From Desulfobacteraceae bacterium (GTDB lineage: Bacteria; Desulfobacterota; Desulfobacteria; Desulfobacterales; BuS5), in contig JAUVKE010000084.1 in the NCBI GenBank assembly GCA_030592105.1, forward strand, positions 1 through 8,995: DNA of 8,995 nucleotides, in the 5' to 3' direction. Position numbers and translations under genes: made by a program. Positions 1 to 8,995 of this stretch are shown here, piece after piece; positions within the stretch are counted from its first letter, which is position 1, and every line of letters starts with the position of its first letter. The notes under the pieces are model-generated. The model saw nothing but the letters and a program-made list of their open reading frames with translations. It ran no database searches and was not told where the DNA came from.

Positions 1-60
1 AAAATTGCGAAACTCGTTCGTGCCTCACTCAAACAGTCGCACTTTTTTGGCTACGCTGCA

Positions 61-179
61 CTAAGAAATTCTACGAAATTTATTCAATACGCTACAAAAA
101 CAATTAAACTCCCCTCGCGCAAGATTCTAACCGGACACTACTGAGGAATTCTACTAATTTATATAATGCCATTAAACTC
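61..179 (+). repeat. Imperfect direct repeat in the gene-free end
   Basis: Two copies share the start CT(A/G)AG(A/G)AATTCTAC, at 61-74 and 141-154. Each then runs into an AAATTTA/TAATTTA stretch and closes with ATTAAACTC, at 103-111 and 171-179. The copies differ by small insertions and are separated by about 30 bp. No coding capacity is visible at 1-222. The neighbouring 1-60 stretch resembles dispersed intergenic sequence rather than a gene, but I cannot name it. Confidence 0.4.
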
Positions 180-222
180 TATCTCATTTTCATATTTTGT
201 TGTGCCTGATAGGGCATGCCGG

Positions 223-480
223 TTATACAACATTTTTTCCGCAGCAACTGCCGGGTCCTGCACAGCCGGAAGCTTCACCAGGAGAAAAACCGCAGCAAGC
301 TGTGTCACCGGAGCCGGGCAAGCTGTTTTTTGCCAATCCTGACATGGAAGAATGGGCAGACAAACATTTTTTTATATTTTTACTGCCGCAAAAATTGCAC
401 CGGGGATGATCATCAGATTCGAAAATCAATATTTCGCTTAATTTCCCACAATCCCTGCATTCATAATCAAATAATGGCAT
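223..480 (-). CDS. FmdB-family zinc-ribbon protein with a cysteine-rich tail
   Basis: An 85-residue protein starting MPLFDYECRDCGKLSEI, the usual opening of FmdB-type putative regulatory zinc ribbons. Cys8, Cys11, Cys28 and Cys31 form the two CxxC knuckles of the zinc site. The C-terminal half is a low-complexity Gly/Cys segment with Cys62, Cys63, Cys73, Cys79 and Cys80, ending GSCCGKNVV. The role of the family is not established; the name comes from a gene beside formamidase. ATG 480 has AAGGAG 7 nt upstream. It is the last gene of the operon, 17 nt after the CGGC gene. No clear hairpin terminator follows its stop. Confidence 0.88.
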   Translation of the reverse strand: MPLFDYECRDCGKLSEILIFESDDHPRCNFCGSKNIKKCLSAHSSMSGLAKNSLPGSGDTACCGFSPGEASGCAGPGSCCGKNVV

Positions 481-497
481 GGTGAAACTCCTTATTA

Positions 498-863
498 TTA
501 CGCAAAAATATTGTCCGGTTTGTACGGGTGGGTTCCTTCGATGACCTCCACACCGGCCTTGGCCTTGATTTTCCCTATAATCGTATCCTTATAGGGACAG
601 TGATCGATAATACATGGCGCAATATGAACTTTTGTTATTTTTTCTTCCATCGGCTTGTTCCATAGATTCACCTGCGCAAGCCGGGTGACAATAGTTGCAC
701 CTGGACAGTCACCACAGTTTAGTAGCCCGATAATCTGGGCATCCTGGCCTTTATAACGCTCAAATTCACCATCTTTTCTGTTGAACCCGACTATACACCT
801 GCTGCAGCCGATGCAGACATCGTCCATTGCTTTTTTACACCCTACAATTAATATTTTTTCCAT
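498..863 (-). CDS. CGGC-domain cysteine-rich protein
   Basis: A 121-residue protein matching the CGGC domain family (PF08821 type), thought to bind metal but with no established reaction. It has eight cysteines: Cys9, Cys17, Cys20, Cys23, Cys50, Cys53, Cys84 and Cys89. The name-giving CGGC motif appears as CGDC (50-53) in NCGDCPGATIV. HIAPCIIDHCPYKD (80-93) and the closing VIEGTHPY (107-114) fit the family. The Cys17-x2-Cys20-x2-Cys23 group near the N-terminus looks like a ferredoxin-type or zinc-type ligand set. ATG 863 is chosen over the longer frame to 914, which would overlap mrp, because GGGAG sits 5 nt upstream. It is 22 nt after mrp and 17 nt before the FmdB-like gene. Confidence 0.85.
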   Translation of the reverse strand: MEKILIVGCKKAMDDVCIGCSRCIVGFNRKDGEFERYKGQDAQIIGLLNCGDCPGATIVTRLAQVNLWNKPMEEKITKVHIAPCIIDHCPYKDTIIGKIKAKAGVEVIEGTHPYKPDNIFA

Positions 864-885
864 GTTAACTCCCTTTTTTTTACTA

Positions 886-1722
886 CTATCCGGATATTGA
901 CATTTTTTCGGCAATCTCTGAAAATATTTTTGTCACTGGCGAATCCGGATATTTCTCCTGATAGGAAACACCTGTATCTCCGCATTTAACCATATTGGGA
1001 TCAAGTGGTATTTTCCCAAGAAATGAAATTCCGGATGAAGAAGCGGTTTTTTGTCCGCCTCCACTGCCAAATATGTCAATCGGTTTGCCGCAATGGGGGC
1101 AGGCATAGCTGCTCATATTTTCAACAAGCCCGAAGATTTTCATTTTAACGACTTTGCAAAAGTTTATTGACTTACGAACATCTGCAAGGGCAACCTCCTG
1201 GGGCGTTGCTACAATAATTGCCTGAGCGTCTTTAATAAGCTGCGCCACAGTTAATGGTTCGTCACCTGTGCCCGGCGGTGAATCAATAATCAAAAAATCA
1301 AGATTTCCCCAATCAACATCTCCAATAAACTGCCGTATGGCACCATGTTTTACAGGCCCCCTCCATATAATTGCATTATCCTTATCCTGCAGCAAGGATT
1401 CCATTGAAACTGCAGCAAGGTTTTTTGAAAAACTCATGGGTTGAATCTTTTTGTTCTCGCCGACATCAAGCATGCCGCTGAAACCAAGCATTCTTGGTAT
1501 ATCCGGACCATGAATATCCACATCCATAAGCCCTACTTTAAATCCCTTATTTGCTAAAGCTATTGCTATATTAACGGAAACACTGGTTTTCCCAACTCCC
1601 CCCTTGCCACTCATGATCATAAATTTGTTTTTAATTTTTGTCAGGGCTTGTTTTGCCAGTTCATCGGGATCCGGTTTTGGAGGCTTATCCGCAATCCCTA
1701 TTCCTTTTTGGGTTGTTTCCAT
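886..1722 (-). CDS. Mrp/NBP35-family P-loop ATPase (Fe-S cluster carrier)
   Basis: A 278-residue cytoplasmic ATPase of the Mrp/ApbC/Nbp35 branch of the MinD superfamily, whose members carry and transfer Fe-S clusters. It has the deviant Walker A motif SGKGGVGKTS (38-47), Walker A' MDVDIHGPDIPRMLG (66-80), switch II/Walker B LIIDSPPGTGDEPL (144-157), and the Mrp signature ENMSSYACPHCGKP (201-214), with Cys208 and Cys211 as the dimer-bridging cluster ligands. A polar tail of about 30 residues precedes the core. The frame opens from a TTG at 1746, but ATG 1722 has AAGGA just upstream and is preferred. The TAG stop is 22 nt before the CGGC-protein start. In ORP systems of Desulfovibrio, MinD-type ATPases work with a NifX-like protein; the single Mrp here may load a cluster onto the NifX-like product. 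That partnership is inferred from the operon. Confidence 0.95.
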   Translation of the reverse strand: METTQKGIGIADKPPKPDPDELAKQALTKIKNKFMIMSGKGGVGKTSVSVNIAIALANKGFKVGLMDVDIHGPDIPRMLGFSGMLDVGENKKIQPMSFSKNLAAVSMESLLQDKDNAIIWRGPVKHGAIRQFIGDVDWGNLDFLIIDSPPGTGDEPLTVAQLIKDAQAIIVATPQEVALADVRKSINFCKVVKMKIFGLVENMSSYACPHCGKPIDIFGSGGGQKTASSSGISFLGKIPLDPNMVKCGDTGVSYQEKYPDSPVTKIFSEIAEKMSISG

Positions 1723-1781
1723 ATTATCCTTCTTTATCGTTACCAATGCTCCTCAACCTTTCCAGCATCAGTAAAAAATTT

Positions 1782-1865
1782 GTAACTATTCAGCCTCTTA
1801 TCTGTGAGTTTTTCATGGTTTAATCAGATTATACCTGCTGCCGTGCATATTCGCTGAATAGTTAC
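1782..1865. mobile_element. Probable MITE: 84-bp element with terminal inverted repeats
   Basis: The ends are perfect inverted repeats, GTAACTATTCAGC at 1782-1794 and GCTGAATAGTTAC at 1853-1865. The segment is immediately flanked on both sides by AAAATTT (1775-1781 and 1866-1872), an exact 7-bp direct repeat that looks like a target-site duplication. The flanks also extend the pairing, making a 16-bp perfect stem (1779-1794 with 1853-1868). The 58-nt interior is non-coding. It sits between the receiver gene and the Mrp gene. An intrinsic terminator is the main alternative, but a 58-nt loop is long for one. The transposase family is not identifiable here. Confidence 0.6.
1828..1833 (-). promoter_or_regulatory. 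Possible -10 box inside the inserted element
   Basis: On the minus strand the interior of the element contains a perfect TATAAT, about 106 nt before the Mrp start. No good TTGACA-like -35 box lies at the right distance upstream, so this is only a weak promoter candidate that could drive mrp and the genes after it independently of sigma54. Confidence 0.2.
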
Positions 1866-1878
1866 AAAATTTTTTTCT

Positions 1879-2250
1879 TTATTTTATATTCAACACGATG
1901 TTTAAATGGTAAAGTAATTTAATTCCATCCTCTTTACCCGGTTTTTTCGGCAATTGCATTAATATCCCCAGGCCTTCGCTTGCCTCGTGAAAGTCATCTG
2001 GAGAAAGGGAGCTTATTGCAGCACAATTAAGCAATGGATTAAATAATATAAGTTTTTTAATACATTCAATCCCGTTCATGTCGGGAAGCTTTTCATCTGT
2101 AATTATCAGATCAAATTTTTCTTTTTTTAATCTGGAAAGAAGATCGCCGCAAGATTCAACCCATGTAATTTGAGCGTTATTTTCTTCAAGCCCTGTTTTT
2201 AAATCGGATAATGAGTTTTTATCAAGACTAACAAGTAATATGCGAATCAT
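1879..2250 (-). CDS. Stand-alone receiver-domain protein with an incomplete acidic pocket
   Basis: A 123-residue CheY-like receiver domain with no output domain. Asp52 in DLIITDEKLPDMNG is at the phospho-acceptor position. Ser80/Ser81 (AAISSLS) match the conserved Thr/Ser, and Lys103-Pro104 the conserved Lys-Pro. The paired acidic residues that normally bind Mg2+ after the first strand are replaced: the segment reads ILLVSLDKN, with Ser8 and Leu9 where DD is expected. Phosphorylation may therefore be weak or absent, and the domain may work as a protein-interaction module. No histidine kinase is encoded nearby. ATG 2250 follows GGGAGAG. It is part of the NifX-like/Mrp operon by orientation, although a 201-nt gap and a probable inserted element border it. 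Confidence 0.88.
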   Translation of the reverse strand: MIRILLVSLDKNSLSDLKTGLEENNAQITWVESCGDLLSRLKKEKFDLIITDEKLPDMNGIECIKKLILFNPLLNCAAISSLSPDDFHEASEGLGILMQLPKKPGKEDGIKLLYHLNIVLNIK

Positions 2251-2451
2251 TCATCTCTCCCTGGTATAAATATGATATTGCCCATGAATTTTCGGGTTGG
2301 TTTTAATCCCGGTCATTTTGAAATATAAGACATGGGGGTGAGTATTGAGAATAAGGATAGAGTAAAGTTTTTTTCAATGCTCAGTGGCCCAAGATAAAGC
2401 CAAACCCAGATTTTCAAGCATTTCTATCCCTTTGTCTAAAAAATGCGGCTC
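2251..2451. other. 201-nt gene-free interval inside the operon
   Basis: No recognisable gene, sigma54 promoter or clear terminator lies between the glycine-rich gene and the receiver gene. The first part continues the glycine-rich gene's frame beyond its TAA for 26 codons and contains a 15-codon ATG frame (2421-2374). The rest is AT-rich, without a convincing hairpin. The ribosome site of the receiver gene (GGGAGAG) is at its left end. The operon could be continuous through it or have an unseen internal promoter. Confidence 0.5.
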
Positions 2452-2616
2452 TTAATTTTGTCCCCCACGGCCCTGGCCGCCGCCTTTACCCTGACCTTGC
2501 CCTTTTCCACGGCCTGTTTTTTGGCCTGAACCTTTCCCCCCTTTTCCCGGCTGACAGCCTCCACTTCCTTTGCCTGTGCCCTGTCCCTGGGACCCTGTGC
2601 CATCTCCTCTGGGCAT
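2452..2616 (-). CDS. 54-residue glycine-rich protein with a DUF5320-like start
   Basis: A small gene under 60 codons that simple length cut-offs miss. The ATG at 2616 follows a near-ideal ribosome site AAAAGGAGGTG with 8 nt spacing, and the frame ends at TAA (2452-2454). The product starts MPRGDGTGSQGQGTGKGSGG and goes on with Gly, Gln, Lys and Arg repeats, one cysteine (Cys21), no hydrophobic core and a strong positive charge. The opening MPRGDGTG with a cysteine near residue 21 resembles small DUF5320-type proteins, which in anaerobes occur beside NifX-like and Mrp/MinD genes. The function of those proteins is unknown. It lies 32 nt after the NifX-like gene in the same operon. A longer open frame across the same bases (2486-2680) lacks a ribosome site and overlaps the NifX-like gene. 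Confidence 0.78.
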   Translation of the reverse strand: MPRGDGTGSQGQGTGKGSGGCQPGKGGKGSGQKTGRGKGQGQGKGGGQGRGGQN

Positions 2617-2648
2617 AGTCTTCACCTCCTTTTGTTGTTAAAAAAACA

Positions 2649-3011
2649 TTACATTTTTTTTGTTCTGTTACGTTTTCCACCGCATCCAGGCATCAGAAAT
2701 ATCGATTTTATCCTATTCTCTTTTGCATAGGAAAGGAGCACTTCTTCCAGTTTACCGCCAATAAAAGGAATGAGTTTTATTCCACTGGCTTCAATTATTT
2801 TTGCCGGCGTTTCTGAAATAGCTCCACAAATTAAAACATCTACTCCAAGTTTGTCAAGTGAGTCTGCCAGGCAGTGAGTCATTTCAGGCTTAAAAAGTTC
2901 ACAACACCTGGATATGATCTCTTTATTTTCGATCTCTGCGATGAGGAGTGTCCGGGCAGAATCGAAAACTGGTGATATTTTATCTTCCCAGGCAGTAAGT
3001 GCAACTTTCAT
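2649..3011 (-). CDS. NifX/NifB-like (dinitrogenase Fe-Mo cofactor biosynthesis, MTH1175/orange-protein type) protein
   Basis: A 120-residue protein of the NifX/MTH1175 fold, single-domain relatives of which bind or carry metal clusters; Desulfovibrio orange protein carries a Mo-Cu-S cluster. Typical features are the start MKVALTAWEDKISPVFDSAR, a central LGVDVLICGAISETPAKIIEASGI region (55-78), and a short cysteine/glycine tail MPGCGG (108-112). Cysteines lie at 36, 37, 47, 62 and 110. The frame is open to 3047, but ATG 3011 is preferred: it has AAAGGAGAT just upstream, whereas 3047 lies inside the promoter core. It is the first gene of the sigma54 operon, 32 nt before the glycine-rich gene. 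The cluster it binds, if any, cannot be told from sequence. Nitrogen fixation itself is not implied, since no nitrogenase genes are present. Confidence 0.88.
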   Translation of the reverse strand: MKVALTAWEDKISPVFDSARTLLIAEIENKEIISRCCELFKPEMTHCLADSLDKLGVDVLICGAISETPAKIIEASGIKLIPFIGGKLEEVLLSYAKENRIKSIFLMPGCGGKRNRTKKM

Positions 3012-3040
3012 ACTTAAATTATCTCCTTTTATCAAAAAAT

Positions 3041-3060
3041 GTTGCAAAGCTTATGCCAGG
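3041..3060 (-). promoter_or_regulatory. Sigma54 (-24/-12) promoter of the NifX-like/Mrp operon
   Basis: On the minus strand the sequence reads CCTGGCATAAGCTTTGCAAC. This has the invariant GG (3057-3056), exactly ten bases, then GC (3045-3044). It closely matches the sigma54 consensus TGGCAC-N5-TTGCA. Transcription should start near 3032, about 20 nt before the ATG at 3011, with the ribosome site AAAGGAGAT in between. The gene for a sigma54 activator lies immediately upstream. The core overlaps the first codons of the longest open frame of the next gene, which is why the shorter start is chosen there. Confidence 0.87.
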
Positions 3061-3140
3061 TACGAAGAAAGGGGTTCATTAATATGCAAAAGTAATGAAT
3101 ACAGGTGGTTTACAAGGATAAAATGCGAGAACAAGGGAGT

Positions 3141-3162
3141 TGTAATGCATTAATGCAATACA
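3141..3162. promoter_or_regulatory. Near-perfect 22-bp palindrome, probable enhancer (UAS) for the sigma54 activator
   Basis: The core TGCATTAATGCA is a perfect 12-bp palindrome. It is flanked by TGTAA on the left and ATACA on the right, so only one pair of positions breaks the symmetry over 22 bp. The centre lies about 120 bp upstream of the predicted transcription start of the NifX-like operon, within the usual range for enhancer-binding proteins. Each arm reads as a half-site of the form TTAATGCA(T/A)TACA. The Fis-type helix-turn-helix protein encoded next door is the obvious candidate ligand, by inference from position. Confidence 0.65.
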
Positions 3163-3170
3163 GGCAGATG

Positions 3171-3183
3171 TTAATGCAACACA
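3171..3183 (+). promoter_or_regulatory. Additional enhancer half-site
   Basis: TTAATGCAACACA matches 12 of 13 bases of the right arm of the palindrome (TTAATGCAATACA at 3150-3162) in the same orientation. The offset is exactly 21 bp, two helical turns, so a second bound dimer would face the same side of the DNA. A shorter relative (TAATGAATACA) occurs at 3093-3103, and a small palindrome GCAATATTGC at 3191-3200. Confidence 0.45.
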
Positions 3184-3204
3184 AATAGTCGCAATATTGC
3201 ACAG

Positions 3205-4593
3205 TTATATGTTTTTTTGAGTGATTTTTGATCGCCCATCAATTTTCGGTAAAGATATCCCAAGTTTATTGATTTTTCTAAAAAGAGTACTTTTATGGAT
3301 GCCGAGATCATCGGCAGTATCCATGCGGTTAAAATTATTTCTCTTTAGAGCATTTGTAATCATTTTGATTTCTGCTGATTTTACAGGATCGCTGAAGCTG
3401 TTATGTCTCAGAGTATCCCTGGATTGCCTGGCAAAGTTTTCAGGGATGTGCTGCAACATGATGTTGCCGTTTGCGCACAGCACAAAAGCATGTTCAATAA
3501 TATTTGCAAGCTCTCTTATATTGCCGGGGAAATTATATGACATTAGACTCTCAAGCACCTGATGATCAATACCCCTTACAAATTTTTTACGAATTTTGTT
3601 TAATTTGTTAATAAAATGGTTAATAAGAAGGGGAATGTCTTCCATGCGCTGTCTTAAGGGGGGGAGCTTCAGATGTATTACATTGATCCTGTAAAAGAGG
3701 TCCTGGCGGAATTTTCCGATCTCAACCATTTTGGGAAGATTTTTATTTGTCGCTGCAATAATGCGAACATTTGCCTTTTCTTTTTTTTCACTTCCAAGGG
3801 GCTGAAATTCACGTTCTTCCAGTACCCGGAGCAGCCTAACCTGAAACGCAGCGCTTGTATCGCCGATTTCATCGAGTAAAATGGTGCCCCCTTCTGCTGC
3901 AGCAAAGTATCCTCTCTTGTCTTTCAGGGCATTTGTAAAGGCACCGGCCTTAAAACCGAAAAGCTCTGATTCCAGTAGTGTATCTGGAAATGCTCCGCAA
4001 TTGATTGGAATAAAAGGCTTGTTTTTACGATGACTTAAATTGTGAATAGCCCTTGCAGTCAGTTCTTTTCCTGTGCCTGTCTCTCCATCAATTAATACAG
4101 TGCTGTCGCTTTCGGAAATCTGGGGAAGAATTTTAAAAATTTTAGCCATGGCAGGACTGCGGCTTATAATATCACCCATTTGATAGCCTGCAGAGAGTTC
4201 TTTTCTTAGTTCCTCCACAAGGCTGTGATCCCGAAATGTTTCAACACAGCCAAGGATTTTACCTTTTTCATCTTTTAACAGCGATGTGGATACAGTGATG
4301 GGAATACGTTTTTTTTCGCTATTAATGATATATGTGGAGGTGCTGACAAATGATTTCCCTTCTTTCATTGTCTTTTTCAAGGCACATTCACCTTCACACA
4401 TATTTGAGCGAAAAACGTTCCAGCATTGCCTGCCTATGGCTTCATTCCGGGAAATCCCTGTAATTTCCTCTGCTGCACGGTTGAAAGACATGATCTTCCA
4501 GTTAAGGTCAACAGTAAAAACACCGTCAGAAATACTTTCAAGAATAATTTCTGTTACATTTTCAGCTATTTTATCTGATTTGAAGTTTTTCAT
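3205..4593 (-). CDS. PAS-domain sigma54-dependent transcriptional activator (bacterial enhancer-binding protein)
   Basis: A 462-residue cytoplasmic activator that remodels sigma54 RNA polymerase. A PAS sensor domain occupies about 12-125. It contains Cys57, Cys66 and Cys70 in a CWNVFRSNMCEGEC context, a possible redox or metal site. The AAA+ domain follows at about 140-370, with Walker A GETGTGKE (170-177), Walker B TILLDEIGD (237-245), and FYRINV with PPLRQR near 300-316. The sigma54-contacting GAFTGA loop reads GAFTNA (217-222). A Fis-type helix-turn-helix, ADDLGIHKSTLFRKINKLGI (427-446), ends the protein. There is no receiver domain, so the PAS domain should be the sensor. The ribosome site is weak. 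The frame is open for about 28 codons upstream, but they contain no ATG, GTG or TTG, so ATG 4593 stands. The operon downstream has a sigma54 promoter and a palindromic enhancer-like site, so this is its probable local regulator. Confidence 0.95.
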   Translation of the reverse strand: MKNFKSDKIAENVTEIILESISDGVFTVDLNWKIMSFNRAAEEITGISRNEAIGRQCWNVFRSNMCEGECALKKTMKEGKSFVSTSTYIINSEKKRIPITVSTSLLKDEKGKILGCVETFRDHSLVEELRKELSAGYQMGDIISRSPAMAKIFKILPQISESDSTVLIDGETGTGKELTARAIHNLSHRKNKPFIPINCGAFPDTLLESELFGFKAGAFTNALKDKRGYFAAAEGGTILLDEIGDTSAAFQVRLLRVLEEREFQPLGSEKKEKANVRIIAATNKNLPKMVEIGKFRQDLFYRINVIHLKLPPLRQRMEDIPLLINHFINKLNKIRKKFVRGIDHQVLESLMSYNFPGNIRELANIIEHAFVLCANGNIMLQHIPENFARQSRDTLRHNSFSDPVKSAEIKMITNALKRNNFNRMDTADDLGIHKSTLFRKINKLGISLPKIDGRSKITQKNI

Positions 4594-4634
4594 TGCCTGT
4601 TTTAAAAGGGTAGTCTCGATCCTTTTGAAAGTAA

Positions 4635-4676
4635 AAGCCGCAGCCTGTCCTGATAAATCAGAGAAGGCTGCGGCTT
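4635..4676 (-). terminator. Rho-independent terminator of the dehydratase operon
   Basis: A perfect 11-bp stem (AAGCCGCAGCC at 4635-4645 with GGCTGCGGCTT at 4666-4676) encloses a 20-nt loop that contains a second 5-bp stem (CTGAT/ATCAG at 4650-4661). Read on the minus strand, the stem is followed by TTTTACTTTC, a short T-rich tail. It lies about 70 nt past the activator stop and 42 nt before the sigma54 activator start, so it separates the two transcription units. It could also form in the leader of the activator mRNA if transcription reads through. On the plus strand the following sequence is less T-rich. Confidence 0.8.
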
Positions 4677-4748
4677 AACTCTTTTATTAATAAAAATTGC
4701 GCAAAGAGAATCTAAAAATTAGATGTAAAATTATTTTCAAGCCAGTTT

Positions 4749-5543
4749 TTAAGCCTGCATAAATTTTTCACGCGCGATAAGGGCTGCTCCCAATGCACCC
4801 ATGATCTGGGGTTCTTCCGGTACCATGAGAACTGTTTTTATGCTTTTTTCCAGAGCTTCCACCATACCTTTGCTTTTTGCAACTCCCCCTGTCATTGCAA
4901 CCCTTTCTTTTTTACCAACCTGGCCAAAAAGGCCTGTAACCCTGCGTGCTATTGACCTGTAAACTCCCAGGGCTATATCAGCTTTTTCTGTGCCCTGGGC
5001 AAAGAGGGAGATCACCTCTGATTCGGCAAATACAGTACACATGCTGCTTATTTCCACATCTGTTCTAGATTTTTCAGCCAACGTACTCATTTCACTAAGA
5101 TCGACCCCCAGGGAAACAGCCATTACCTCCAGAAACCGGCCGGTTCCTGCTGCGCATTTGTCATTCATGGCAAATTTTACAGCTTTACCCTCTTTATTTA
5201 CCTCTATTACCTTGCTGTCCTGTCCTCCGATATCAATAATTGTTCTTACTTCAGGAAAGACAAAATTTGCGCCTCTGCCGTGACAGCTTATTTCTGTGAC
5301 CTGGCTGTCCGCAAAGGGGACACGCGCCCTGCCGTATCCGGTTGATATGATATAAGACATATCTCCCATGCTCAGTTCTGCTTTTGCCAGGGTATTATTC
5401 ATGACTGTTTCAGCGGCACCTTTGTAAACAGCCCCGCTTTGCAAAATAGAGTATGCTTTTATCTTATTCTTTTCATCAATAATAACAACCTTGGAAAAAA
5501 GGGAACCAATATCTATTCCTGCAAAATATTTTATATTATTCAC
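4749..5543 (-). CDS. ATPase activator of 2-hydroxyacyl-CoA dehydratase (HgdC/BcrD/BadF family)
   Basis: A 264-residue ASKHA-fold ATPase, the usual length for HgdC-type activators. Such proteins form a homodimer bridged by one [4Fe-4S] cluster and couple ATP hydrolysis to injection of a low-potential electron into the dehydratase or reductase. The phosphate-binding motif GIDIGSLFSK is at 9-18, DIGGQDSK at 104-111, the two cluster cysteines are Cys130 (NDKCAAGTGRFLE) and Cys169 (SSMCTVFAESEVISL), and the adenosine motif MTGGVAKSKG is at 217-226. The first loop reads GSLFSK, where many relatives have GSTTTK. It starts with GTG one base after the stop of the preceding subunit, with AAGGA about 10 nt upstream. 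It is the last gene of its operon, followed by a hairpin terminator. A single activator points to an HgdC-type dehydratase rather than a BcrABCD reductase, which carries two different activator subunits; this is inference. Confidence 0.95.
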   Translation of the reverse strand: MNNIKYFAGIDIGSLFSKVVIIDEKNKIKAYSILQSGAVYKGAAETVMNNTLAKAELSMGDMSYIISTGYGRARVPFADSQVTEISCHGRGANFVFPEVRTIIDIGGQDSKVIEVNKEGKAVKFAMNDKCAAGTGRFLEVMAVSLGVDLSEMSTLAEKSRTDVEISSMCTVFAESEVISLFAQGTEKADIALGVYRSIARRVTGLFGQVGKKERVAMTGGVAKSKGMVEALEKSIKTVLMVPEEPQIMGALGAALIAREKFMQA

Positions 5544-5544
5544 T

Positions 5545-6795
5545 TTATTTTTTCCTTGCAGCCATCATCTCCGCCAGAGCTTCGAGTCTTGTGTCTATCT
5601 GCCCGAAGGAATTCATCCTTGAATCGACCATATCACCTTCAATGACAACACCGGGGATATTATGTTTCTTTTCTATGGCCTTGATAAAATCCGGATGTCC
5701 CAGATTCCACATTCTGCATGATTTGGAACTGAACATGATAACGCCGTCAAGACTGTATTCCTCCACCCATTTTTGAATGGCTGGAAGACTCATATTGGGA
5801 AGATTCTGTTTTGCAAGGCCTCCGTTGGAATATACCTGTTTTACAAATTCTTTGATGGGGTCCCCATTTAAATCGATTGTCTCAGGATGGGGAAAAAATT
5901 CCCATGGATACCTACCCACCAGGGGAACTATTCCAAGATCTGTCATTTTTCTGGAAAATTGTCCAAGAAAACCCCATGGAAGCCAGCCGTCCCAGTATAC
6001 TCTGTACTTTTCAGGTTCAATGGCCCCTATCCCTTTTTCAGCCCTTTCAGCTAATTCATCCCGGAGTTGGGTATAGTAGGGTACTGCATCTGGACTTCCC
6101 ATCATGTAAAAAACAGGGGCAATACTTACACCGTAATCCCAGAGTGTCCATGGTGAGGGTATTTTTTTAAAATACTCCCAGCATTCATTTCTTAGTATAC
6201 AGGTCTCTTTGTGTATGGCCATTATCTCAATGAGTCTGTCATAATCAAAGGGTTTTCCGCATATTTCTTCTATTCTCGGAATAAGTGATCCCCTTACCTG
6301 ATCTTCACAATATTTTTCCAGGCCAGGCACCAGACTTTCATTCACAGGGGGAGGTGTATCAATCCCTATAACATTTATGTCCATTCTGCGGTATAATCCT
6401 TCTGCATAATGGGACATTTCAGTACAGAGCCTTCCTGTGATCAGGAGGTCAGGCATGGGAAGGAGCACATCTTCTCTGACCGGGATCCCCTTTTTTATGG
6501 CCATTGCCATTCCCATATGAGCCTTATGGTATGAACAGGTGTCAAGCATATCCCCTTCTGCTTCGGCTATTTTAAGGAGATCGTCTGCGGCGCCTCTTCC
6601 GCCGGCATATGCTGCATATCCGGCCATGAAGTGGCATTTCATACCCATTGCATATGGAAAAATAAACATGGGGCCGGAACACCACGCAACCATTTCGCCC
6701 CTTTTCTTTGCCGTGCGTAAATCAGCCCAGTGCTTGTCAACCATGGGGCCTATGAGTTTTGTTGTTTTAAGCCGGTTTGTTTTATGTTTTGACAT
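5545..6795 (-). CDS. 2-hydroxyacyl-CoA dehydratase / benzoyl-CoA reductase family subunit (HgdA/BcrB-like)
   Basis: A 416-residue second catalytic subunit of the same superfamily, predicted to pair with the HgdB/BcrC-like product. The C-terminal signature DGVIMFSSKSCRMWNLG (350-366) followed by VVIEGDMVDSRMNSFGQIDTRLEAL (383-407) matches the family pattern in which a cysteine binds the cluster. EGDMLDTCSYHKAHMG (80-95) supplies another conserved cysteine. Cys87 and Cys360 are the likeliest ligands, with Cys39 or Cys124 as a possible third. The frame is open further upstream, but ATG 6795 is preferred because AAGGAG sits 7 nt before it. It lies 1 nt after the upstream stop, and the downstream activator starts 1 nt after this stop. 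BcrB, BadE and HgdA assignments cannot be separated by eye, so no substrate is claimed. Confidence 0.92.
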   Translation of the reverse strand: MSKHKTNRLKTTKLIGPMVDKHWADLRTAKKRGEMVAWCSGPMFIFPYAMGMKCHFMAGYAAYAGGRGAADDLLKIAEAEGDMLDTCSYHKAHMGMAMAIKKGIPVREDVLLPMPDLLITGRLCTEMSHYAEGLYRRMDINVIGIDTPPPVNESLVPGLEKYCEDQVRGSLIPRIEEICGKPFDYDRLIEIMAIHKETCILRNECWEYFKKIPSPWTLWDYGVSIAPVFYMMGSPDAVPYYTQLRDELAERAEKGIGAIEPEKYRVYWDGWLPWGFLGQFSRKMTDLGIVPLVGRYPWEFFPHPETIDLNGDPIKEFVKQVYSNGGLAKQNLPNMSLPAIQKWVEEYSLDGVIMFSSKSCRMWNLGHPDFIKAIEKKHNIPGVVIEGDMVDSRMNSFGQIDTRLEALAEMMAARKK

Positions 6796-6796
6796 A

Positions 6797-7942
6797 TTAC
6801 ACTCCTTGTAAAATTTCAACAAATGTTTGCAGTCTTGTTTTTACCTGTTCAAATGAAATTATCTCATGTTCAACTTCAATGAGAATCTCAGGTATCCCTT
6901 TTGCAGCAAGTTTATTTTTGATATCAGGATAATAGCACATATGGGGAGGACAATATTTTATCATCAGGCTGATAATTCCTTTTGCATTGTTTTTTTCGGC
7001 CATTTCTATGATATAGTCTGTCCAGTCGGTTCTATAATCACCTTTTGTGGGGCATGGCGGGGTCTTTTTCATGTAGCGGTTAGCCAGGGCTTCATAGGGG
7101 TTTCCATTTTTTTCAACGGGATTGGCAAAATATTTTGATCCAACAAAAATATCATCATCCACGATAACCATGCCAAGATCTTCAATTATAGTGAGGATCT
7201 CAGTATTAACTGTCTGGCACAGGCCTCCATATGTTATAACTTTGATCCGTTCATCTTTTAAAAGAGTCTGTTTTCTGTTGTTTAATTCTTCAACAACCTT
7301 TTCAAGGAGAGTATTATTGATGTCTTTGGACATGAGCATGCTGGAATGAACCACCGCAAGCATCTCTTTTCCCTTTATTATCCCGGGATTTTTTCTTCTT
7401 AATCCATATATTTCAGATAAAAGTTTCCTGTTTTTATTATAAATATCTATGGCGTTATTAAGGGTATCATCTGTTATGGTGTTTCCTGAGACTTTTTCAA
7501 GACCGGTTTTAAATCTTTTGAATTCCTCTAACAGATAGTTGTAGCTCACATTATCATCATAAAGGGCAGGGAGTGACAAATATTCTATGTAAGGCACTTT
7601 TGAGGCCTGTTCCAGGAGGAATGGGAGCCCCTGGGCCTGGAGACACATCCTGTTGACTACTATGCCGTCAATAAAGTCGAGTTTTTCTTTGACAAGGTCA
7701 TCAATAAAACTGCGTGTAAGGCCACAGTTAAATGTTGCCACGTGGGAATGGCCCATGGTTACTGATTCATCACTGCGCCATGAAATCACGGGGAGCATCC
7801 CTGAAGCAAAGACAATCTCTTCAGGTATGTGCATTGCAAAACAGGATATTATTTTTTTATTATTGTCAATTTTCCATTTTTTTAAATAATCGTATGGATT
7901 TGTCGAAATTTCGATGCATTGTTCGATTGGTTTTTTATCCAT
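6797..7942 (-). CDS. 2-hydroxyacyl-CoA dehydratase / benzoyl-CoA reductase family subunit (HgdB/BcrC-like)
   Basis: A 381-residue subunit of the HgdB/BcrC/BadD family. These proteins hold a [4Fe-4S] cluster at or near the active site and take up one electron driven by ATP hydrolysis in the partner activator. Family landmarks are present: IPEEIVFASGMLP at 39-51, FNCGLTRS at 71-78, VNRMC at 96-100, VDDDIFVGSKYF at 261-272, IKYCPPHMC at 328-336, and the closing IPEILIEVEHEIISFEQVKTRLQTF stretch around 350-374. Cys73, Cys100 and Cys331 are the best candidate cluster ligands. Two deviations are visible: the aspartate that usually follows the second cysteine is missing, and the cysteine of the usual VVDDxCxG motif is Phe266. 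The ATG at 7942 follows a strong GGAGGTG ribosome site. The next gene starts 1 nt after this stop and its ribosome site lies inside the last codons here, which suggests translational coupling. The substrate is not determined. Confidence 0.92.
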   Translation of the reverse strand: MDKKPIEQCIEISTNPYDYLKKWKIDNNKKIISCFAMHIPEEIVFASGMLPVISWRSDESVTMGHSHVATFNCGLTRSFIDDLVKEKLDFIDGIVVNRMCLQAQGLPFLLEQASKVPYIEYLSLPALYDDNVSYNYLLEEFKRFKTGLEKVSGNTITDDTLNNAIDIYNKNRKLLSEIYGLRRKNPGIIKGKEMLAVVHSSMLMSKDINNTLLEKVVEELNNRKQTLLKDERIKVITYGGLCQTVNTEILTIIEDLGMVIVDDDIFVGSKYFANPVEKNGNPYEALANRYMKKTPPCPTKGDYRTDWTDYIIEMAEKNNAKGIISLMIKYCPPHMCYYPDIKNKLAAKGIPEILIEVEHEIISFEQVKTRLQTFVEILQGV

Positions 7943-7963
7943 TACACCTCCGTTGAATTATGC

Positions 7964-8995
7964 TTATAATTTTATATTGTCTGCTATAATTTCCCTGTGA
8001 TAATCAGCATCACCAAAGGCGAGCTCATGTGTCTTGGCGTTGCGGAAATAAAGCTCCATTTCATATTCGTCGATTATACCTATCCCCCCATGTATTTTAA
8101 CTCCAAAAAGAGAGACATCTCTTGCAGCGTCACTGGCCCTTGCTTTTGCCATTGATATTTCTTTTGCGCACTCCTTTTTTTCAGCAACCTTCCAGGATGC
8201 AAAATAGGTTAAATATCTTACCTGCTCCACACTTAAGGCCATGTCTGCAAGTTGGTGGGCAATCGCCTGGAAGCTTCCTATGGGCCTTTGAAACTGTTTT
8301 CGTGTTTTTGCGTAATCGCTTGTCATGTCAAGTATTGCATCGATGGTTCCCAAAAGATAGGCAGAATAAGATATGGCACCGAGATTATTGATATAATCTG
8401 AAATCTCCTTTCCAGCCCCTTCTTTTCCCAGGATATTTTTGGCGGAGACTTCTACATTTTCAAGGGTCATTTCAAATAATTTGTCTGTTCCCATGGAATC
8501 CAATGGTGTCTGTTTAACTCCAGGGAGATCGGTGCTGAGGATAAAACAGGTGTCCCCTTTTTCTGTATCTGCAAAATAGATGAACATGTCCGCTGTATTG
8601 GCAAAGGGGACAAAGAGTCTGGTTCCATTTAGAATGTAACTCTTGTTTTCTTTTTTTGCACTCTCTTTAACAGGTTCGATCTGTTCGTGTGATGGCTTGA
8701 TAAGTGCGGTGGTTATAATAAGCTTGCCGTCGACCATGTCAGGGAGGAAAGTTTTTTTCTGGATATCTGAACCAAATTTATTGATTGTAAAACCGGAAAC
8801 AGCCGATTGGATAAAAGGCCCTGGGAGCTGAATTTTTCCCATTTGTTCGATTAAAACCATGAGTTCTAAAAAATTCCCATCCAATCCACTATATTCTTCG
8901 GGGATTCCAATTCCCATCCATCCCAGTTCTGCCATCTGATTCCAGAGCTTGTCCCCATACCCTTTGTCAGTATTTTCTGTCTCTTTTGCCATGGT
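7964..8995 (-). CDS. Acyl-CoA dehydrogenase, 5' end outside window
   Basis: Flavoprotein of the acyl-CoA dehydrogenase family, which oxidises an acyl-CoA to the 2,3-enoyl-CoA and passes electrons to an electron-transfer flavoprotein. The visible residues begin in the middle of the N-terminal helical domain (LWNQMAELGWMGIGIPEEY), so roughly 30-40 residues lie beyond the window edge. The ATG at 8992 is probably an internal methionine, because the frame stays open to the edge. Numbering from that ATG, the family's RKQFQRPIGSFQA segment (FAD binding) is at about 231-243 and HGGIGIIDEYEMELYFRNAK at 301-320. The common YEGT..IQR ending with its catalytic glutamate is absent; the C-terminus reads ELAFGDADYHRE, as in the PimD-like branch. 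The TEP.AGSD-type segment is also unrecognisable. It lies 21 nt upstream of the dehydratase genes, so it probably acts in the same acyl-CoA pathway. The substrate is unknown. Confidence 0.9.
   Translation of the reverse strand, partial: TMAKETENTDKGYGDKLWNQMAELGWMGIGIPEEYSGLDGNFLELMVLIEQMGKIQLPGPFIQSAVSGFTINKFGSDIQKKTFLPDMVDGKLIITTALIKPSHEQIEPVKESAKKENKSYILNGTRLFVPFANTADMFIYFADTEKGDTCFILSTDLPGVKQTPLDSMGTDKLFEMTLENVEVSAKNILGKEGAGKEISDYINNLGAISYSAYLLGTIDAILDMTSDYAKTRKQFQRPIGSFQAIAHQLADMALSVEQVRYLTYFASWKVAEKKECAKEISMAKARASDAARDVSLFGVKIHGGIGIIDEYEMELYFRNAKTHELAFGDADYHREIIADNIKL

Follow-up and report, generated by a model that had tools for sequence, protein, structure and literature searches.

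We analysed an 8,995-nucleotide (nt) contig of a Desulfobacteraceae bacterium (JAUVKE010000084.1, positions 1 to 8,995; assembly GCA_030592105.1), called the window below, in which six minus-strand genes lie beside the gene for a sigma54 activator. Their products are, in order, a NifX-like protein with a Di-Nase domain, a cationic Gly-rich protein, a stand-alone pseudo-receiver, an Mrp ATPase, a CGGC-domain protein and an FmdB-type zinc ribbon. On sequence grounds, this operon is an arrangement of the orange-protein (ORP) gene family and not a separate new system. What distinguishes it is not the receiver but a pair of ferredoxin-MinD ATPases, which are absent here or encoded elsewhere in the genome. 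We propose, with a probability of about 0.5, that the operon is the regulator, storage and delivery part of an ORP-type iron–sulfur (Fe–S) gene cluster, either separated from the ferredoxin-MinD/ORP part or without one.

Relatives of the operon and the MinD pair

Searching with the Mrp protein yielded 195 confirmed stretches, and we retrieved the top 80 and mapped them along with the window (81 loci), using profiles seeded from these same loci and taking the first possible start codon of each gene. The exact six-gene order was found only in the window and in a sister contig, L001, where the NifX-like and Gly-rich parts form one frame and Mrp is 88% identical. By alignment, the pseudo-receiver occurs together with Mrp in 12 of the 80 loci. 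An initial annotation of the window had proposed co-occurrence across relatives as a check on the grouping. The genes do co-occur, and the grouping was not refuted, although the exact order was seen in only two of the 81 loci.

Four loci (L006, L010, L016 and L018) hold full clusters, with NifX, DUF5320, the receiver, two ferredoxin-MinD ATPases, two further Di-Nase proteins and Mrp; L018 also shows the activator, and L010 and L016 also show CGGC and FmdB. The MinD pair is present in L012 and L019 too. At L005, L007, L008, L011 and L013 we found NifX, the receiver, Mrp and a Di-Nase protein with a Gly-rich tail, accompanied by the activator in four of the five, and the MinD pair was absent. 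We searched six genomes with reduced or related loci, and every one has the pair, which in the two complete Desulfosarcina genomes lies ~1 Mb from the Mrp locus. In four of the six its neighbours are exclusively Di-Nase and ORP-type genes; in HSG16 (L170) an activator, NifX and a receiver accompany it, and in Desulfonema magnum (L171) a NifU-type gene does. The gene set of the full clusters is divided over two loci in L003/L170, L005/L168 and L008/L169. Since some loci have the MinD pair in the cluster and others have it elsewhere, the system comes in parts, together or apart. In the genome of L001, a 1.6-Mb partial assembly, no full-length match to the pair was found.

In the Mrp tree, the window and L001 form a pair (99/98) inside a group of eleven, beside the full clusters. 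The group also contains the other reduced loci, L003, the receiver-less L014 and L015, and L004, which has the MinD pair.

These comparisons do not support one claim of the initial annotation, namely that the receiver and two Cys-rich proteins are additions that set the operon apart from the ORP system. The four two-MinD clusters also carry the receiver, so it is no addition to the ORP-type set, and CGGC and FmdB recur in L010 and L016. The single ATPase noted in the operon is Mrp, which corresponds to the Mrp half of the fusion protein MrpORP; relatives have the MinD pair as well, in the cluster or elsewhere in the genome.

The NifX-like, Mrp and Cys-rich proteins

The Gly-rich protein contains 25 Gly, 9 Lys or Arg and 1 Asp or Glu, with no aromatics and an isoelectric point (pI) of 11.2; its start, MPRGDGTG, is DUF5320-like and has its own Shine-Dalgarno sequence, AAAGGAGGT. 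In L001, L006, L015, L018 and L042, NifX and the Gly-rich part are a single open frame. Of the 555 homologues that the L001 fusion retrieved, we inspected the best 120, and 119 of these have a cationic Gly-rich tail (at least 40 residues, at least 20% Gly, pI at least 9.5), a count in which the query was fused and is itself included, and outside which the unfused Desulfosarcina proteins lie. The tails in this set have a median of 82 residues, 33% Gly and pI 11.8, and the one protein that departs from this pattern, P0248, shares 81% identity with the query. In the window the two parts are separate genes, and in L005, L007, L011 and L013 NifX stops soon after the domain, without a tail. The Shine-Dalgarno sequence at the Gly-rich start is kept in the window and a similar stretch occurs in the four fused frames inspected, so fused and free Gly-rich forms may both arise there.

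Another fusion is seen in L008 (Desulfosarcina widdelii), where the NifX-like domain and the pseudo-receiver make up one 250-residue open frame (7236-7988), which suggests contact between the two proteins. A second Di-Nase protein in L005 (8871-9623) and L008 (8773-9507) ends in a DUF5320-like segment rich in Gly, Met and Arg: an arm of the Gly-rich type, here on a different NifX-fold protein encoded in that operon. In the window, A- and T-homopolymer runs lie at 2640-2661, where the NifX frame stops ahead of the Gly-rich gene; this frame end is unlike the fused relatives, and P0248 is unfused too.

The architecture of NifX plus Gly-rich part resembles that of IssA, a protein with a Di-Nase domain and a cationic Gly-rich tail that stores thioferrate, whose authors gave the name IssX to a clade of uncharacterised non-thermophilic homologues (PMC5524996). 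What the window's relatives share with IssA and IssX is the Di-Nase domain followed by a high-pI Gly-rich tail; the window differs in that the tail is a separate gene. A similar chemistry may go with the similar architecture.

The Mrp translation contains the deviant Walker A motif GKGGVGKT and the CXXC ligand motif CPHC, as expected of an Mrp/NBP35 ATPase. Against the MrpORP model (NF041136, DVU2109), it matches positions 2-248 of 365 with 377.1 bits, below the curated cut-off of 450, and the NifX-like protein matches positions 265-363 with 32.8 bits. The two halves of MrpORP, one fusion, thus correspond to two genes in the window. Together with the genes that stand beside the MinD pair in relatives, this bears out the kinship with the ORP system that had been proposed for the operon. 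MrpORP passes clusters to Orp3/Orp4, and its P-loop domain does so in vitro to ORP proteins (PMC6345978).

The CGGC protein has ten invariant positions across 30 sequences, five of them Cys; its confident model (pLDDT, the predicted local distance difference test score, 93) matched nothing in the PDB with an E-value of 0.001 or lower. The FmdB tail, CCG...CAGPGSCCG, is invariant in 10 aligned cluster proteins and is possibly a metal site and a potential family marker. In L001, a NifU-type scaffold (PF01592, E 9.7e-19) begins 37 nt after FmdB and is followed by a second CGGC protein; the last 222 nt of the window contain no NifU-type frame.

This gene content fits the handling of metal–sulfur clusters, as the initial annotation had it. 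Its further proposal was a pathway for an unknown metal–sulfur cluster. Read as an assembly line that supplies a heterometal (Mo/Cu or other) cluster to an unknown metalloenzyme, it could appeal to the NifX-type domain, Mrp and the two Cys-rich proteins, and to the fact that Orp8 binds a Mo-Cu-S cluster (PMC6345978). We consider it unlikely, given that a Pfam scan of the eleven window proteins found no metal-uptake, metal-sensor or pterin gene and that no sequence feature indicates a second metal.

The pseudo-receiver and its genomic company

For the receiver, we compared the best 120 of 2,085 homologues at E 1e-10 or better, the window protein included. The conserved receiver Lys is replaced in all 120 (Leu in 115, Ile in 5). 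Of the acidic pair, one position is acidic in none of them and the other in 101, in an alignment with a one-residue uncertainty at the pair and a gapped Thr column. The phospho-acceptor Asp is present in 111 and lost in L006. Ser80, invariant in 39 of 39 sequences, stands in our reading in place of the Thr. Pseudo-receivers are defined by the lack of at least one of five conserved receiver residues (PMC12632262); with the Lys gone and one acidic-pair position never acidic, the window receiver, judged by its residues, falls within this definition.

The structural model has a CheY fold (pLDDT 93.8; best PDB match 3crn, E 7.5e-7). Conservation peaks in a stretch that reads HEASEGLGILMQLP in the window and HEA[ST]EGLGILM in 73 of the 120 homologues. 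It covers helix 4 and strand 5, which belong to the alpha4-beta5-alpha5 face, described as functionally important and as the dimer surface of many pseudo-receivers (PMC12632262). The CheY fold and the loss of conserved active-site residues are shared with bacterial pseudo-receivers (PsR; PMC12632262); the window receiver differs from these in standing alone, tied to an Fe–S gene cluster, without a DNA-binding output domain.

The Asp and the acidic-pair residue that most homologues keep would suit an ordinary phospho-acceptor of an unlinked kinase, feeding input to the operon. This seems quite unlikely to us, because the Lys is Leu or Ile throughout, the second acidic-pair position is never acidic, and the Asp itself is dispensed with in L006.

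A profile built from ten receivers and run on 297 genomes of the phylum gave 39 matches in 38 genomes, one match being L001 itself. With G001 dropped (it contains L001, a profile seed), 34 of the other 38 matches scored at least 60 bits and were counted, and four below 60 bits (L151-L154) were not. All 34 strong matches have a same-strand cluster gene within 600 nt; 33 adjoin a MinD or Di-Nase gene, and L131 has a CGGC gene only. The same-strand genes nearby include MIND1 at 28 of the 34 loci, which again speaks against the receiver as an addition, MIND2 at 29, NifU at 20, the sigma54 activator at 14, NifX at 12 and Mrp at 8. None of the four weak matches has a same-strand MinD or Di-Nase gene, L153 having a NifX-type gene on the opposite strand. 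In loci of ~3.3 kb, a cluster gene was present at 30 of 30 receiver-profile matches vs 1 of 30 of the best ordinary receivers, the latter being the top-scoring receivers of six genomes and not a random draw. MIND1 occurs in 183 of the 297 genomes, and all 34 genomes with a strong receiver match are among those 183. The receiver is a frequent, dedicated part of ORP-type clusters, not a universal one. In the open literature, we found no description of a pseudo-receiver or of a NifX-Gly tail in ORP-type clusters.

Layout, regulation and proposed working

The minus strand of the window (Table 1) reads acyl-CoA dehydrogenase, two HGD-D (HadB/HadC-like) subunits, activase, sigma54 activator, a 193-nt gap and the six genes. 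All six were in the order and on the strand given by the initial annotation, beside the activator, and all except the Gly-rich protein matched their families. The first four genes occupy 4749-8992, upstream of the operon on the same strand. Past FmdB, the last 222 nt hold no other minus-strand frame of 50 residues, and the contig seems to end there.

Table 1. Features of the operon and of its upstream region in the window
Feature	Position	Strand	Evidence or remark
NifX/ORP-like (Di-Nase) protein, 120 aa	2649-3011, ATG at 3011	-	PF02579 E 1.3e-11 (searched as 2649-3014)
Cationic Gly-rich protein, 54 aa	2452-2616	-	No family above cut-off; DUF5320 E 0.22
Stand-alone pseudo-receiver, Lys replaced by Leu, HEASEGLGILMQLP stretch	1879-2250	-	PF00072 E 4.7e-11
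Mrp/NBP35 P-loop ATPase, CPHC (CXXC) motif	886-1722	-	PF10609 E 9.6e-98
CGGC-domain Cys-rich protein	498-863	-	PF08821 E 8.3e-27
FmdB-type zinc ribbon with Cys-rich tail	223-480	-	TIGR02605 E 3.2e-10
Sigma54 activator, PAS - AAA+ - Fis-type helix-turn-helix, GAFTNA loop	3205-4593	-	PAS CX8CX3C (CWNVFRSNMCEGEC)
Predicted sigma54 -24/-12 promoter TGGCATAAGCTTTGCA	3058-3043 (3043..3058)	-	Exact pattern match
Palindromic site YGCA-N4-TGCR, copy 1, candidate activator site	3190-3201	.	Starts 190 nt before NifX ATG
Palindromic site YGCA-N4-TGCR, copy 2, candidate activator site	3146-3157	.	Starts 146 nt before NifX ATG

The gaps between successive genes of the six are 32, 201, 156, 22 and 17 nt. A single transcript, as first proposed, is likely though not proven: no terminator-like site was found on the minus strand within the six-gene unit, but weak sigma70-like sites lie in the 201-nt gap ahead of the receiver.

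Control by sigma54, also proposed initially, is supported by the exact -24/-12 site and by the PAS/AAA+/Fis architecture of the activator. TGGCATAAGCTTTGCA is the sole sigma54 match in the window at up to one mismatch; at least one such match occurred in 133 of 200 shuffles, so that a match alone is not rare. As a promoter it is credible because it lies 31 nt before the NifX ATG and because relatives repeat the pattern ahead of their NifX gene (8 of 13 loci, with 3 more by a looser pattern). The palindrome, a pattern picked by eye on the very 13 loci later counted, is found upstream of NifX in 11 of them, with 15 sites in 3,900 upstream nt, whereas the rest of these loci (164,039 nt) has 14; random stretches had it in at most 3 of 13 loci (2,000 draws). 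A third match lies at 3754-3765, within the activator gene.

The PAS motif CX8CX3C is present in 22 of 23 full-length cluster activators, the exception being L136. This tally comprises 16 of 22 by a first pattern, five in which a different residue follows the final Cys, and L170, which was added to 30 rows after eight had been left out: the fragments L134 and L149 and, as not beside the cluster, L075, L127 (twice), L135 and the second open reading frames of L120 and L137. The motif might hold a cluster that senses redox or Fe–S status. OrpR, which we take to be DVU2106 of Desulfovibrio vulgaris, senses redox via a PAS-bound Fe–S cluster.

The comparison with orp1/orp2 of D. vulgaris was made from published descriptions. 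Both systems have a sigma54 promoter, a single-component activator (adjacent, in the window), upstream palindromes, a NifX-type domain and an Mrp ATPase (PMC3897727, PMC4641369, PMC6345978). At the D. vulgaris promoters, DVU2106 binds the palindromes and acts with sigma54 and IHF (PMC3897727). The window differs in that Mrp and the Di-Nase protein have a gene each, in that it has genes for a pseudo-receiver, CGGC, FmdB and a Gly-rich protein, and in that the activator loop is GAFTNA vs GAFTDA. It also lacks the ferredoxin-MinD pair of the Orp3/Orp4 type, which we infer to be the equivalents of MIND1/MIND2.

Several observations weigh against the proposed storage and delivery part under sigma54 control. 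In a set of 12 unseen loci, most of them more distant, just 3 had the palindrome and 4 the sigma54 pattern; the palindrome count was matched in 4 of 2000 random draws. At five separate MinD operons the sigma54 pattern was found in none and the palindrome in one, which leaves a shared regulon unsupported. Between the palindromes and the promoter (3043-3204; WATCARN4TTR, up to one mismatch) there is no IHF-like site, in contrast to D. vulgaris, which has an IHF site between activator sites and promoter. The tails are poor in aromatics (none in the window protein, a median of 1.4% in relatives, vs 14 of 70 residues in IssA), so we claim likeness to IssA, not membership. Finally, a receiver lies within ~1.5 kb at just 7 of the 30 best MIND1 loci; ORP-type clusters can evidently lack the receiver or hold it farther away, as in the same cluster at L120, L121, L122, L126 and L134.

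At the stand-alone MinD-ferredoxin operons L168, L169, L172 and L173, we noticed by eye a common stretch near TGCTTGACG upstream of MIND1. It reads like a sigma70 -35 region that would replace a sigma54 promoter.

A plain ORP operon might also serve cell-division or Z-ring positioning through ORP/MinD proteins, a hypothesis stated for D. vulgaris (PMC4672049) that the kinship with ORP-type clusters would extend to the window. We find this improbable: the MinD pair is missing from the window operon and has no full-length match in the partial genome of L001, and the genes retained resemble storage and delivery, not what positioning would keep. Least probable is that the operon matures the Fe–S enzyme encoded upstream, a 2-hydroxyacyl-CoA dehydratase of the HadB/HadC type with its activase. 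A HadB-like gene and an activase gene do stand ahead of the activator, on its strand, in the window and in L001, but these are the only two of the 81 mapped loci that have them; elsewhere ORP-type genes occur without them.

If the operon is indeed the regulator, storage and delivery part of an ORP-type cluster, it might work as follows. The activator would sense redox or Fe–S status through a cluster held by the PAS motif, bind the palindromes that begin 190 and 146 nt ahead of the NifX ATG and fire the sigma54 promoter. The NifX-like domain and its cationic Gly-rich partner would hold anionic Fe–S species, as IssA does. Mrp, by homology, would bear [4Fe-4S] clusters on its CXXC motif, presumably helped by CGGC, FmdB and, in L001, the NifU-type scaffold. 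The pseudo-receiver, having lost catalytic residues, may act as a protein-contact partner independent of phosphorylation. The targets would be ORP/ferredoxin-MinD proteins if present, and other Fe–S enzymes if not.

A more tentative and rather doubtful extension is that anaerobes run a redox-controlled iron–sulfide reserve, in which the IssX-type NifX-Gly protein stores Fe–S, Mrp draws on it, and the pseudo-receiver, no longer active in phospho-signalling, serves much of the ORP family as an adaptor that senses clusters or partners. If true, this would assign a cellular role to IssX and to a family of pseudo-receivers. The pseudo-receiver also poses a new question, because the switching of bacterial pseudo-receivers has been called a mystery (PMC12632262).

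Studies of the ORP system in Desulfovibrio have not yet settled its role. Viewing it as exchangeable parts (regulator, NifX-Gly and pseudo-receiver; Mrp, CGGC, FmdB and NifU; MinD pair and ORP) would make these roles separable and testable. The pseudo-receiver provides a marker gene for many ORP-type clusters, and the NifX-Gly fusion offers a bacterial test case for iron–sulfide storage.

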